Part shown: in pieces, positions 2 to 4,644 of the stretch
How the letters are laid out: each line of letters opens with the position of its first letter
Numbering within the stretch: position 1 is the stretch's first letter
Source of the DNA: Rathayibacter oskolensis
Lineage (GTDB): Bacteria > Actinomycetota > Actinomycetes > Actinomycetales > Microbacteriaceae
DNA: 64,000 nucleotides
Reading direction: 5' to 3'
Assembly (NCBI RefSeq): GCF_900177245.1
Contig: NZ_FXBM01000001.1
Coordinates: 806,001-870,000, forward strand
Translations under genes and position numbers: made by a program
The notes under the pieces: model-generated
Seen by the model: the letters and a program-made list of their open reading frames with translations, nothing else
Databases searched by the model: none
What the model was told of the DNA's origin: nothing

Positions 2-460
2 GACTGCACGACGTTCCTGCCGCTCGCCTCCGTCGCCGCCATGCAGGGGCGCACCGGGGTCTTCCACGCGATGGGTGATGCCGTGAACCCGACCGAGGTG
101 CGCAACGTCGCGGCCAACATCTTCACGCAGCCCGAGATCGCGACCGTCGGCTGGAGCCAGCGCGAGATCGAGGAGGGCATCGCGCAGGGTGAGATCTACA
201 AGCTGCCGCTCGCCGCGAACCCCCGCGCGAAGATGATGGGGATCCGCGACGGCTTCGTGAAGCTGTTCGCGCGCACCGGCTCCGGCACCGTCATCGGAGG
301 CGTCATCGTCGCCCCGAAGGCCAGCGAGCTGATCTTCCCCCTCGCGCTCGCCGTCGAGCACCGGCTCACCGTCGACCAGGTCGCCCGCGCCTTCACCGTC
401 TACCCGAGCCTCACCGGCTCCATCTCGGACGCGGCGCGCGCCATGCACATCGTCAGCTGA
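2..460 (+). CDS. lpdA: NAD(P)H-quinone dehydrogenase, C-terminal part (5' end outside window)
   Basis: The reading frame is open from base 2, and 152 residues are visible. They begin in the FAD-binding segment (DCTTFLPLASVAAMQGR) and continue through the C-terminal dimerisation domain (FTQPEIATVG) of the pyridine nucleotide-disulphide oxidoreductase family. True dihydrolipoamide dehydrogenases end with a catalytic His-Glu pair (HxHPTxxE). Here that site reads VYPSLTGSISDAAR, without the pair. This is what M. tuberculosis LpdA (Rv3303c), a flavoprotein quinone reductase, looks like. I therefore call it a quinone reductase and not an E3 subunit. It converges with the next gene across an 80-base gap. 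Confidence 0.85.
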   Translation, partial: DCTTFLPLASVAAMQGRTGVFHAMGDAVNPTEVRNVAANIFTQPEIATVGWSQREIEEGIAQGEIYKLPLAANPRAKMMGIRDGFVKLFARTGSGTVIGGVIVAPKASELIFPLALAVEHRLTVDQVARAFTVYPSLTGSISDAARAMHIVS

Positions 461-540
461 CGCTCCGGGCGCGATCGCCGCAGACGGCAGCAGCGCTGCG
501 GCATCGAGGGAGGTCGATGGTCGCCAGGGTGCGCACCCGG

Positions 541-1005
541 TCAGTCGTCGTAGGCCCCCGCGAGCCGGGACTGGAGTGCTGTGAGGGCGACCCCGAGGGT
601 GCAGCCGGTCTGCAGGACGCCGGCCGCCGCCATGGCCGCCCAGGTCTCCTCGGGCGCCCACAGCAGCGTCGACCACCCGAGGAATCCGAGCAGAGCCGAC
701 CCGCCGTACAGGAGGGCCGCGGTCCGCCGCGGGATCTCGATCGAACCGGCTCCGGCGCGGAGCGCGCCGGGGGCGAGGAGCAGCGCCAGGAGTGCTGCGG
801 CGACGAGGAGGACCGTCGCCCGCGGGGCAGCGACTCCGACGAGGGCGGCGGTGCAGATCCACGACAGGCCGGCGATGAGCGCGAGGCCGAGGATCAGGCC
901 GCTGCTGCTGCTCGGCAGCGTCGACAGCTCACCGCGCTCGTCGGGGTCCTCGTCGTCGAACCCCTCCGCGATCGGGAGAGCGGTCCACCGTCGTTCGGCG
1001 TTCAC
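541..1005 (-). CDS. Small hypothetical membrane protein, four predicted TM helices
   Basis: The protein has 154 residues. I chose GTG at 1005 because it overlaps the TGA of the upstream AraC gene in a GTGA arrangement, which points to translational coupling. The polar N-terminus (about 35 residues, acidic DDEDPDERGE) is followed by four hydrophobic stretches, at roughly 37-60, 65-85, 98-117 and 122-145. An in-frame upward extension to 1842 exists, but it runs through the AraC gene and the 130-bp repeat array and is not credible. I recognise no family. Pairing with a short regulator suggests a regulator-target or regulator-sensor unit, but this is a guess. Confidence 0.6.
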   Translation of the reverse strand: MNAERRWTALPIAEGFDDEDPDERGELSTLPSSSSGLILGLALIAGLSWICTAALVGVAAPRATVLLVAAALLALLLAPGALRAGAGSIEIPRRTAALLYGGSALLGFLGWSTLLWAPEETWAAMAAAGVLQTGCTLGVALTALQSRLAGAYDD

Positions 1006-1469
1006 GACCGGCCCTCGTCCGCCGTCGCCGCGAGGGGCCCCTCCCGGGTGACGCTCGTCCGGAACCAGGCGGCGAGCGCGGGGGTGCGCCGGTAGCGGAC
1101 GAAGTCGCGGTCGAGGTCGGCTGTGCTTCGATAGCCGGCGCTGCGGGCGATGTCCTCGAGGGCGCCCGGGCGGTGAGGTGTGCGGGCCATGAGCGTTCCG
1201 GCGCGCTCGAGGCGCCGTGACGCGAGATGCTCCTCCAGCGGCAGGGAGTAGAAGCGCCGGAATCGCAGGCGCAGCATCACGGTCGACACGCGCAGCTCCC
1301 GGGCGAGACCGGCGATCGTGAATCGGCGGTCGAGGTAGCGCTCGTTCACCAGCGCCGCGGTCGCGATCGCGAGCAGGTCGTGCCGCCGCCTCGAACGCCT
1401 GGAGCGGAGTGGGGCTCGTCGCCTCACACGGGAGTCGACGAGCAGGATCTTCTTGCGAGTGACAGCCAT
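1002..1469 (-). CDS. Short AraC-type transcriptional regulator (HTH domain only)
   Basis: The protein has 155 residues. An Arg-rich N-terminus (SRVRRRAPLRSRRSRRR) is followed by a C-terminal AraC/XylS double helix-turn-helix. The first HTH is near RRFTIAGLARELRVS, where strand pairing then gives LRFRRFYSLPLEEHLASRRL. The second is near LEDIARSAGYRSTADLDRDFVRYRRTP. There is no ligand-binding or cupin domain, so any signal must come from a partner. The ATG start is at 1469. The gene overlaps the downstream membrane-protein gene by 4 bases. The 130-bp repeat array lies immediately upstream. AraC-fold assignment is good; targets are unknown. Confidence 0.72.
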   Translation of the reverse strand: MAVTRKKILLVDSRVRRRAPLRSRRSRRRHDLLAIATAALVNERYLDRRFTIAGLARELRVSTVMLRLRFRRFYSLPLEEHLASRRLERAGTLMARTPHRPGALEDIARSAGYRSTADLDRDFVRYRRTPALAAWFRTSVTREGPLAATADEGRS

Positions 1470-1555
1470 GCTGGTGGGACGTCGCCCCGCCCCCCGTACT
1501 CACGCCCTTGCGCGAACTGACCCCCCGGCGGCGCACCCGCGCCCCTCCCACCGGA

Positions 1556-2155
1556 TCGCACAACCCGCTCCATGGTGAGCACCCCGTCGAGATGGCGACT
1601 GCCCCGAGCCTCGCAGTGACCGGCTCGGACGGAAACTCGGTCGAGCGCGCGTTCGAGAATCGCGTGTCAGCGATTCGAGGCAGTGCGACGCGCCCCGCTC
1701 TGCGGAACGCATCACCTCGACAAGCCGACTGCGCCGAGCCGCGTAGGGAGCGGCTCGGTCGACAACACGGTCGAGCGCGCGTCCGAGAATCGCGTGTCAG
1801 CGATTCTCGGCAGTGCGACGCACCCCGCTCTGCGGAACGCACCCCGTCGAGAAGCGGACCGCGCCGAACCGCGTAGGGAGCGGCTCGGACGGGGACACGT
1901 TCGAGCGCGCGTCCGAGAATCGCGTGTCAGCGATTCGAGGCAGCGCGACGCACCCCGCTCTGCGGAACGCACCCCGTCGACAAGCCGACTGCGCCGAGCC
2001 GCGCAGGGAGCGGCTCGGACGGGAACACGGTCGAGCGCGCGTCCGAGAATCGCGTGTCAGCGATTCGAGGCAGCGCGACGCACCCCGCTCTGCGGAACGC
2101 ACCGTCTTGAGAAGCCGACCGCGCTGAGCCGCGCACGGAGCGGCTCAGAAACAAA
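1556..2155. repeat. Tandem array of 130-bp repeats carrying two hairpins per unit
   Basis: The landmark GAGAATCGCGTGTCAGCGAT recurs at 1655, 1785, 1915 and 2045, an exact 130-base period. A partial unit precedes the array (from about 1556) and a partial one ends it (2101-2155). Each unit carries hairpin B (gaatcgc/gcgattc, 6-base loop: 1657-1676, 1787-1806, 1917-1936, 2047-2066) and hairpin A (ccgagccgc/gcggctcgg, 7-base loop: 1734-1758, 1864-1888, 1994-2018, plus variants at 1604-1628 and 2124-2148). In the second unit hairpin B lengthens to an 11-bp stem (1783-1810). The array fills the 687 bases between the accA stop and the AraC gene. It has no spacers and no plausible gene. 130 is not a multiple of 3, so frames passing through it are not conserved. 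Confidence 0.95.
2124..2148 (-). terminator. Hairpin just downstream of accA (last copy of repeat hairpin A)
   Basis: The stem ctgagccgc/gcggctcag (9 bp) has a 7-base loop and lies 9 bases beyond the accA stop codon. Relative to the other copies (ccgagccgc/gcggctcgg), both partners of one base pair have changed together. It has no T-run on either side, so a classical intrinsic terminator is not shown. It may be a 3'-end stabiliser or a Rho-assisted end. Confidence 0.5.
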
Positions 2156-2156
2156 C

Positions 2157-3917
2157 TCAGACGATGGAAAGCAGCACGTGCCCCGAGGACACGGTGGTTC
2201 CGGCTTCGGCGGCGAGGCCGCGGACCGTGCCGTCCTTGTGGGCGGTGAGAGGCTGCTCCATCTTCATGGCCTCGAGGACGACGACCAGGTCGCCGGCGAC
2301 GACCGTGTCGCCCTCGGCGACCGCGACCTTCACGATGGTGGCCTGCATCGGCGCGGTGACCGAGTCGCCGGTGACGGTGCTCACTGAGCCGGACCCGCGG
2401 CGCTTGGGCGCCGTGGCCGCGGTGCCCCGGCTCTGCGCGGCACCGACGAGGGAAGCGGGCAGCGACACCTCGACGCGGCGTCCGTCGACCTCGACGACGA
2501 CGTCCTGGCGGGCGGCCTGGTCGGGGATCGCGCCCGGCTCGCCGCTCCAGGCCTCGATGGTGTTCGCGAACTCGGTCTCGATCCAGCGCGTGTAGATGCT
2601 GAAGGGCTCGCCGCCCTCGGGCGCGAACGCCGGGTCCTCGACGATCGCGCGGTGGAAGGGGAGGACCGTCGGCAGTCCGGTGACCTCGAACTCGGCGAGG
2701 GCGCGCCGCGAGCGCTCGAGCGCCTCCTCGCGGGTGCGCCCGGTGACGATGAGCTTGGCGAGGAGGGAGTCGAACGAGCCCGAGATGACGTCGCCCGCGA
2801 CGACTCCGGAGTCGACGCGGACGCCGGGACCGCCGGGGACCTTGAAGACGTGGATCGGGCCGGGCGCGGGCAGGAAGCCGCGGCCGGCGTCCTCGCCGTT
2901 GATCCGGAACTCGAACGAGTGTCCGCGCGGCTCGGGGTCCTCGTAGTCGAGGACGCCGCCCTCGGCGAGCCGGAACTGCTCGCGGACGAGGTCGATCCCG
3001 GTGACCTCCTCCGAGACGGGGTGCTCGACCTGGAGGCGGGTGTTGACCTCGAGGAACGAGACGGTGCCGTCCTTGCCGATCAGGAACTCGCAGGTGCCCG
3101 CGCCGACGTAGCCGACCTCGCGGAGGATCGCCTTGGACGCGCGGTACAGCTCCGTGTTCTGCGCCTCGGTGAGGAACGGCGCGGGCGCCTCCTCGACGAG
3201 CTTCTGGTGGCGGCGCTGCAGCGAGCAGTCGCGGGTCGAGACGACCACGACGTTCCCGTGGGAGTCGGCGAGGCACTGGGTCTCGACGTGGCGGGGCTGG
3301 TCGAGGTACTTCTCGACGAAGCACTCGCCGCGGCCGAACGCCGCGATCGCCTCGCGGGTGGCGGAGGCGAAGAGCTCCTCGACCTCGTCCCGCTCGCGGG
3401 CGACCTTGAGACCGCGCCCGCCGCCTCCGAACGCCGCCTTGATGGCGACGGGCAGGCCGTACTGGTCGACGAACTCGAGCACCTCGGCGGCGCCGGACAC
3501 GGGGTTGAGCGTGCCGGGTGCGAGGGGCGCACCGACCTTCTCGGCGACGTGGCGGGCCGAGACCTTGTCGCCGAGGCGCTCGATCGCCTCCGGGCCCGGT
3601 CCGATCCAGACGAGGCCGGCATCGATCACGGCACGGGCGAACTCGGCGTTCTCGGCGAGGAACCCGTAGCCCGGGTGCACGGCGTCGGCGCCGGAGCGGC
3701 GGGCGACCGAGAGGATCTTCTCGACGACGAGGTAGGTCTCGGCACTCGTCGTGCCGCCGAGCGCGTAGGCCTCATCGGCGAGGCGGCTGTGCACGGCGTC
3801 ACGGTCCTGGTCGGCGTAGACGGCGACGGAGGCGATCCCGCTGTCACGGGCGGCACGGATGACTCGGACGGCGATCTCGCCTCGGTTGGCGATGAGCACC
3901 TTCGTAATGCGTGACAT
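2157..3917 (-). CDS. accA: Acyl-CoA carboxylase alpha subunit (biotin carboxylase plus BCCP)
   Basis: The protein has 586 residues. It carries biotin on its C-terminal domain and carboxylates it with ATP and bicarbonate; the beta subunit (13707-15311) then transfers CO2 to acetyl- or propionyl-CoA to feed fatty-acid synthesis. Domains in order: biotin carboxylase N-terminus ([13 protein letters not shown]), ATP-grasp with a glycine-rich loop ([13 protein letters not shown]) and catalytic strand [14 protein letters not shown], biotin carboxylase C-terminus, a linker of about 100 residues, and a BCCP domain with EAMKM (biotinylated Lys near residue 552). I chose ATG 3917 ([14 protein letters not shown]) over an upstream in-frame ATG at 4001, because the family begins here and a -10-like TAGGGT ends 8 bases before it. 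This matches the AccA3/AccA1 type of actinobacteria. Confidence 0.95.
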
Positions 3918-3925
3918 GTTCCCCA

Positions 3926-3931
3926 ACCCTA
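3926..3931 (-). promoter_or_regulatory. -10 element for a leaderless accA mRNA
   Basis: On the minus strand TAGGGT is followed by 8 bases and then the accA ATG, so transcription would start at or next to the A of the start codon. No clear -35 box is seen. Confidence 0.55.
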
Positions 3932-4017
3932 GGGGTCGGTCTCGCATTGCCTGTGGCGGCGCCCCACAAAGAAGCCGGAGGGCTTCGTCGGTTCCCCACA
4001 AGCCCGCGGTGGCGTGC

Positions 4018-4644
4018 TCAGAGGTTCCAGAGCGAGGTCCAGTCGACCCCGAGTCGGCGGGTCAGGGAGCGCAGAGCGGGCACCGACATCCCGATCACCG
4101 TCGAGGGGTCGCCGTCGATCCGGGTGATGAATCCGGCGGCGCGTCCGTCGATGGTGAAGGCGCCTGCGACCTCGAGGGGCTCGCCGGTGGCGATGTAGGC
4201 GTCGATCTCGGAGTCGTCGATGTCGGCCGCGAACTCGACGGTGGCCGAGGTCACCACCCCGGCCTCGGCGTTCAGTCGTCCGCCGCGGTGGTCGACGAGC
4301 CAGTGCCCGGAGTGGAGGCGCCCCGTGCGTCCGCGCTGCGCGAGCCAGCGCTCCCGGGCGCGCTCGGGTTCGTGCGGCTTCCCGTGAACCACCCCGTCGA
4401 GGACGAAGGCGGAGTCGCCTCCGAGCACGAGTCCGTCGACCTCGGGCCCCAGGACCGCGAGGGCCTTCGCGCGGGCGAGCAGCGAGACCGTGGCGTCCGC
4501 GTCGAGCGGCGACCCGGTCTCGGCCTCGGCCCGGGCGACGGCGGTCGGCTCGTCGACGTGCGACGGGACCACGACGGGTTCGATCCCCGAGGCCCGCAGC
4601 AGCGCGAGCCGTGCGGGTGAGGTGGAGGCGAGGTAGAGGCGCAC
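4018..4644 (-). CDS. maf: Maf-family nucleotide pyrophosphatase
   Basis: The protein has 208 residues and begins [20 protein letters not shown], the typical Maf N-terminus (LASxSPRR). Further on is [17 protein letters not shown], the family's catalytic Asp strand, then [25 protein letters not shown] and a C-terminal [12 protein letters not shown]. Maf proteins hydrolyse non-canonical or modified nucleoside triphosphates to monophosphates. The GTG start at 4644 is preceded by AGGGAG at a good spacing. It lies 100 bases upstream of accA on the same strand, matching the usual accD-accE-maf-accA order in actinobacteria. It is divergent from the RNA methyltransferase across 45 bases. Confidence 0.92.

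Follow-up and report, generated by a model that had tools for sequence, protein, structure and literature searches.

A tandem array downstream of an accA-type gene in Rathayibacter oskolensis belongs to a dispersed family of structured gene-end elements and was amplified locally

The stretch of the Rathayibacter oskolensis genome analysed here (64,000 nucleotides; the window) contains an accA-type gene, whose protein has its nearest relative, among the loci returned, in Rathayibacter sp. VKM Ac-2857 (93%). Directly downstream of this gene lies a tandem array (Table 1) with all of its units in the direction of accA, in agreement with the suggestion of an earlier note on this DNA that the array is the 3′ end of accA. 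Two small minus-strand genes (541-1469) separate accA from the gene of a reductase (2-460). For each of the 15 relatives, the gene called directly after accA lies on the opposite strand, and in 10 of them it clusters with the reductase.

Table 1. Positions of the array units, their parts and the adjoining genes in the window.
Feature	Position	Strand	Basis or remark
accA-type gene, acyl-CoA carboxylase (biotin carboxylase and biotin carrier domain)	2157..3917	-	Pfam PF00289, PF02786, PF02785, PF00364
accA stop codon	2157-2159	-	8 nt ahead of hairpin A of unit 1
Unit 1, adjoining accA	2037..2152	-	Covariance model, 126.4 bits
Unit 1, hairpin A	2124-2148	-	Sequence reading
Unit 1, box 1 (CGCGGTCGGC)	2114-2123	-	Sequence reading
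Unit 1, hairpin B	2047-2066	-	Sequence reading
Unit 2	1907..2022	-	123.5 bits
Unit 2, hairpin A	1994-2018	-
Unit 2, hairpin B	1917-1936	-
Unit 3	1777..1892	-	117 bits
Unit 3, hairpin A	1864-1888	-	One G-U pair (minus strand)
Unit 3, hairpin B, lengthened to 11 bp	1783-1810	-	1783-1793 with 1800-1810; sequence reading
Unit 4	1647..1762	-	120.5 bits
Unit 4, hairpin A	1734-1758	-
Unit 4, hairpin B	1657-1676	-
Degenerate fifth unit	1551..1632	-	35.5 bits
Degenerate fifth unit, hairpin A	1604-1628	-	7 outer pairs only
Small gene beyond the array	1002-1469	-	Helix-turn-helix match slightly below the Pfam cut-off

Tandem Repeats Finder detects a period-130 repeat at 1579-2146 (4.4 copies, 88% matches, no indels), and a repeat search of the array gives start-to-start spacings of 130, 130 and 130, the interval that had been read by eye in the earlier note. 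A covariance model of the unit, two of whose 28 source sequences are array units themselves, identifies four full units on the minus strand of the 64-kb window (117–126 bits) and a degenerate fifth, the next-best match there reaching 15.4 bits. Hairpin A (9 bp, 7-nt loop) had been described as kept in five copies; by eye, all pairs are intact in three of the four full units, while unit 3 carries one change and the fifth unit is reduced to its outer pairs, with no hairpin B seen by eye. The single change in the third copy is present as described, reading as A-C on the plus strand and G-U on the minus strand, and the 11-bp form of hairpin B was found in the same unit. The paired change reported for the last copy (ctgagccgc/gcggctcag) is also there, though it is not fresh: CTGAGCC occurs in five of the six relatives with an accA-side copy, so the change most likely predates the array and the T-A pair is probably the older state at accA. 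A coding repeat was ruled out because a period of 130 is not a multiple of 3. The array folds more stably than 20 shuffled sequences on both strands alike (z = −3.06 and −3.03), so fold stability does not tell the strands apart.

The repeat unit is a dispersed, inherited gene-end element, a property absent from the earlier reading. A 257-bp piece of the array occurs at 26 places in the genome of Rathayibacter sp. VKM Ac-2857 and matches all 15 Rathayibacter genomes searched, at 4 to 42 places each. Related genomes were searched with a covariance model (R1; 28 units, 20 pairs), which gave 10–74 matches per genome and 652 in total across the 15 genomes (E up to 0.01); these genome-wide counts describe the relatives rather than the window's own genome, and the E-values of this and the following model are approximate. 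Under strict filters, with 24 candidates per genome scored, R1 (E up to 0.001) matched 6 of 150 genomes of the family Microbacteriaceae, namely three Rathayibacter and G067, G071 and G139. The last three carry a variant that shares the hairpin A loop and the box CGCnGTCGGC and has a long hairpin within the GCGTTC...GAGCG stretch; no hairpin B was seen in it. A model made from 15 variant sequences (R2; nine candidates per genome scored, E up to 1e-4) matched 17 of 398 family genomes, eight of them Rathayibacter and nine others, three of these others with one or two matches only. An order-level sample of 396 genomes, searched with R2 alone and again with nine candidates per genome scored, yielded a single matching genome, G001 itself; given the strict filters and few scored candidates, weak or divergent forms may escape both the family and the order searches. 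Rfam 15 gave no match in the array (window 400-4200, E up to 5), and at the gathering score it returned only RNase P across eight loci, lying outside the elements. In G003, the RNase P RNA gene and a five-unit element array are about 100 nt apart (L132 759-1137 and 1243-1853). No paper on the repeat was recognised from the titles and abstract openings of the open-licence literature.

The anatomy of the element was derived from 243 distinct elements, retained from 339 nhmmer matches (score of 20 or higher, 60 or more model positions, more than 60 nt from the locus end, duplicates removed); they are mostly top-scoring R1 matches rather than a random sample, with G012 sampled more fully. Aligned on box 1, sequence information spans about −35 to +89, giving an element of about 125 nt, near the unit spacing of about 110–130 bp in arrays. 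A short pyrimidine-rich lead is followed by hairpin A, the nearly invariant box CGCnGTCGGC, a variable spacer, a second conserved part around GCGTTC...GAGCG and hairpin B. Hairpin A commonly has 9 bp and a YCCCYGY loop (commonly TCCCTGC or TCCCCGC); of 217 elements, 183 fit best with a 7-nt loop, 23 with another hairpin and 11 with none, and 120 of 166 elements form eight or nine of the nine pairs in this common geometry. A minority has a second geometry of 12–14 bp with a 3–4-nt loop and about the same overall length (L108 1472-1588, L109 1468-1588). The loop of hairpin B is TGGCAC in 99 of 209 elements and TGACAC in 33. Stem counts exclude 25 of the 243 elements without the box-1 pattern and 34 without the loop pattern. 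By eye, some full elements are preceded by partial units of about 50 nt that consist of hairpin A and box 1, for example in G006, G012 and G014, making these arrays modular.

Both hairpins covary. From 52 distinct units, five were removed (two of odd length, three with a short hairpin B) to leave 47 (set A1), and 19 more with another geometry or an imperfect hairpin A to leave 28 (set A2). In A2, 91.6% of 560 cells are paired, a percentage flattered by this selection, and 13 of the 20 pairs show changes on both sides. Double-change cells number 87, compared with 26.2 after shuffling and 8–17 with the partner strand slid; here and in the variant below, related sequences are among those counted, and the shuffles make no correction for kinship. 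Changed cells that still pair number 92, and 47 cells are unpaired, 28 of the latter at two outer positions of hairpin B. A mutual-information scan of 191 elements (effective number 85) placed hairpin B pairs at the top and hairpin A pairs among the high scores. In the variant captured by R2 there are 14 double-change cells vs. 3.2, all five doubly changed pairs lying in hairpin A. A further helix in the core is unsupported: several core pairs were in the top 60 of the mutual-information scan, which used fixed offsets (best z 10.2), and they vanished on re-alignment of 188 elements (best z 5.0, none clearly complementary). RNAalifold on the 47 sequences of A1 returned only 11 pairs, because hairpin A has two geometries.

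Between orthologs the stems are retained well beyond chance, yet they are often broken. In 107 closest-ortholog pairs, the changes in hairpin A comprise 37 double and 13 one-sided kept against 30 broken where the common geometry is present in both members (89 pairs), or 57 kept against 58 broken where one such copy suffices (94 pairs). The inner seven pairs of hairpin B give 48 kept and 29 broken, and its outer four pairs 31 and 82. Double changes exceed one-sided kept changes throughout, and their numbers (42, 36 and 21) are far above the expectation from drift. The earlier note had taken paired changes as a sign of selection on structure, to be doubted if relatives broke the stems as often as they kept them. 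Selection on structure is borne out by the excess over shuffled and slid controls; on breakage the answer is mixed, favourable for the inner part of hairpin B, dependent on the selection of pairs for hairpin A and unfavourable for the outer part of hairpin B. The frequent breaks indicate that some copies are probably decaying, and they take weight from a role at mRNA 3′ ends and add weight to a mobile relic, two readings weighed below.

Elements sit at gene ends and have a direction. Among 142 intergenic regions with an element, 70 are convergent, 72 tandem and none divergent; genes were called with our own codon-usage caller, which places some starts wrongly, so the direction figures rest mainly on stops and strands. 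None of the 121 gaps that carry an element is divergent, against 26 of the 58 that lack one (p = 1.6e-15, computed over gaps, which are not independent), the 26 coming from the same loci and each being at least 120 nt long. In the tandem regions, the element is in the sense direction only in 53, antisense only in 13 and both in 6, and in all 19 convergent regions with both orientations the elements point inward. Grouped into 41 clusters of orthologous regions, 19 are mainly sense, 5 antisense and 2 both (p = 0.007). Most gaps hold one to five units, and one holds 10 in mixed direction.

The distance from the stop codon to hairpin A is most often 5–9 nt (the largest 5-nt class, 34 of 191; exactly 8 nt in 22) and is below 80 nt in 118 of 191, a few of these being overlaps or artefacts. 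The 191 include later array copies, which account for many of the longer distances. In a few cases, the stop codon lies within hairpin A. At times a stop codon forms part of a hairpin's 5′ arm (TGA...TCA or TAG...CTA), including hairpins outside the family, as seen by eye, for example, in G001, G007 and G010. Distances of 30–60 nt are often filled by another hairpin that is sometimes terminator-like by eye, so the element need not be a terminator at those loci.

The element looks inherited and not recently mobile, as judged from its best matches and from the divergence of copies at different loci. The 148 gene ends with an element fall into 44 carrier gene families, 29 of which are common to 2–11 genomes. 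Of the 148 elements with a sampled ortholog (166 elements in total), 122 have their best cross-genome match at the orthologous gene, and median element identity is 0.81 in orthologous pairs vs. 0.68 in other pairs. The element is also more conserved than the 80 nt downstream of it (0.87 vs. 0.60 between orthologs; higher in 61 of 63 pairs), in a comparison that uses the best ortholog of each element and therefore favours the element; random identity is 0.54, and that of the last 150 nt of the gene 0.93. Peptide deformylase genes carry the element in five Rathayibacter genomes and in G139, a member of another genus.

At the accA locus itself, 6 of 15 relatives have an accA-side element, 10 of 15 have one where the convergent gene ends, and 5 of 15 have neither. 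The five element-free gaps are 35–145 nt long, and those of G004, G011 and G013 hold an ordinary-looking hairpin by eye. No second full sense unit was found on the accA side among the 15 relatives, where the extra matches are weak (24–27 bits) and include one overlapping opposite-strand match in L271; amplification at accA thus seems to have taken place in the window's strain. The array is a four- to five-copy local tandem amplification from an old family of structured elements at gene ends, carried by Rathayibacter and by a small number of other Microbacteriaceae. In several relatives, a second dispersed repeat (TCGAGTAGCCGCGCAGCGGCGTATCGAGACC ... GGATCTCGATACGCGCGCTCCGCGCGCTACTCGATCA) occupies the gap between facing gene-end elements (L275 2150-2560 and other accA-side gaps); its 11-base core is not above chance in the window.

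The element is probably part of the mRNA tail. The reading we tentatively prefer, with somewhat less than even confidence, is that of a structured sense-strand 3′ UTR element that determines or shields the 3′ end of the mRNA; from its sequence and placement we infer both its transcription and a job in 3′-end formation or stability. Within the transcript it would act through termination or by blocking 3′ exonucleases, and tandem repeats would add hairpins. The form of such a terminator would not be canonical, since no GC-rich hairpin followed by a U-tract is predicted in 1400-2300 on either strand, and the T-rich stretch precedes hairpin A rather than following it. Gupta and Pal (2021, PMC8355165) report, for 13 genomes, terminators that consist of hairpin clusters near stop codons and lack poly-U. 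In that work, the hairpins lie less than 80 nt from the stop, often clustered, with poly-U unneeded, and 118 of the 191 distances above fall in this range; such terminators are defined by hairpins alone, whereas the Rathayibacter element has boxes and loops common to unrelated genes.

Placement next to the stop codon also counts against termination by hairpin A. An E. coli terminator 5 bp past the stop codon is described as nearly inactive because of the ribosome (PMC4824070), and hairpin A at 8 nt would likewise lie under a ribosome that has reached the stop codon. Hairpin B lies further downstream and should be free of this interference, while hairpin A could be a ribosome-gated or protective hairpin. 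Weighing further against a 3′ UTR role are the antisense-only tandem gaps, the broken stems between orthologs, the separate terminator-like hairpins at some loci and the composition of the stems. The earlier note had argued for RNA from the one G-U pair seen on the minus strand. Across distinct stems of the family, read on the sense strand, G-U and A-C number 23 and 15 in hairpin A and 14 and 39 in hairpin B, so the wobble argument does not generalise; it is direction and position that carry the case for RNA.

A different origin is offered by a non-autonomous mobile repeat (ERIC-, BOX- or MITE-like), of which the element would be a relic tolerated at gene ends, its direction reflecting the mode of insertion. 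Some past copying is required by the boxes common to unrelated genes, and dispersal across the 15 genomes in differing copy numbers, absence from the accA gap in 5 of 15, tandem arrays with partial units and frequently broken stems all fit such a relic. We consider it possible though on the unlikely side, because copies at different loci of one genome are at most 0.88 identical (median 0.69; 1536 pairs, sample of 190 elements), with no near-identical copies at unrelated loci in that sample, whereas copies within arrays reach 0.99. Y1 transposase (PF01797) was found in 0 of 15 Rathayibacter genomes, with 5 of 14 control genomes positive, and the phage and plasmid collections searched contain no match to the element. 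Double changes made in place and conservation above the flanks oppose mere tolerance.

Among known repeat families, ERIC elements measure roughly 100–130 bp, BOX elements of pneumococci are dispersed and modular, and REP/BIME sequences are palindromic, lie at gene 3′ ends and occur in arrays. The Rathayibacter element is intergenic, dispersed and foldable like ERIC, and present in tens of copies; compared by description, it is set apart by two separate hairpins around fixed boxes, by its direction and anchoring to stop codons, and by different-locus copies lacking the near-identity of recent spread. It shares dispersal and modularity with BOX, and palindromes, gene 3′ ends and arrays with REP/BIME; unlike REP/BIME with RAYT, it has no accompanying Y1 transposase in the 15 genomes searched, is directional and comprises two hairpins in about 125 nt. 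According to Cozzuto et al. 2008 (PMC2267715), BOX is without shared structure of the type searched, while structure is the main common feature of the Rathayibacter element; Yersinia ERIC is reported there to affect neighbouring genes via RNA hairpins, and the stem-loop families described are likewise intergenic with a common structure, some of them double hairpins, a likeness drawn from description only.

The element could instead work as DNA, forming a cruciform at gene ends or a platform there to which proteins such as a topoisomerase or nucleoid protein bind; such a role has been proposed for BIMEs. Stems that are mostly Watson-Crick, with sense-strand G-U overall no commoner than A-C, would suit a DNA site, as would multi-site binding in tandem arrays and the half of regions that are convergent gaps, where supercoils should gather. 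A site of this kind need not be directional, yet tandem gaps favour the sense direction (53:13) and convergent pairs invariably point inward, and hairpin A often lies near the stop codon; we regard the DNA reading as unlikely.

An extension of the 3′ UTR reading, which we judge rather improbable as a whole, is a lineage-specific mRNA 3′-end system. The fixed boxes suggest a putative reader molecule, and a dedicated protein or RNA would recognise CGCnGUCGGC and the UGGCAC loop. Hairpin A, about 8 nt past the stop, would fold only after the last ribosome leaves, coupling 3′-end formation or decay to the end of translation, and tandem units would tune the strength for each gene. Plain tandem duplication with unselected structure would account for the exact 130 period, four copies and 88% matches, and is scarcely credible given that paired changes keep the stems among unrelated-locus copies and in other genera, and that the shuffled and slid controls contradict it.

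The original observation is thus real, and its interpretation as selected structure holds within the limit set by common breaks and is widened here, with direction and position replacing the G-U pair as the argument for RNA and a job at mRNA 3′ ends put forward as a proposal. Most dispersed bacterial repeats are viewed as mobile debris or as sites without fixed direction. The Rathayibacter family contrasts with these in being directional, tied to the stop codons of ordinary genes and inherited in place, with many paired mutations in its two hairpins and fixed boxes between the two. Should it act in the transcript, it would represent a common 3′-UTR element missing from Rfam, and the natural copy-number series across gaps makes its effect directly testable.
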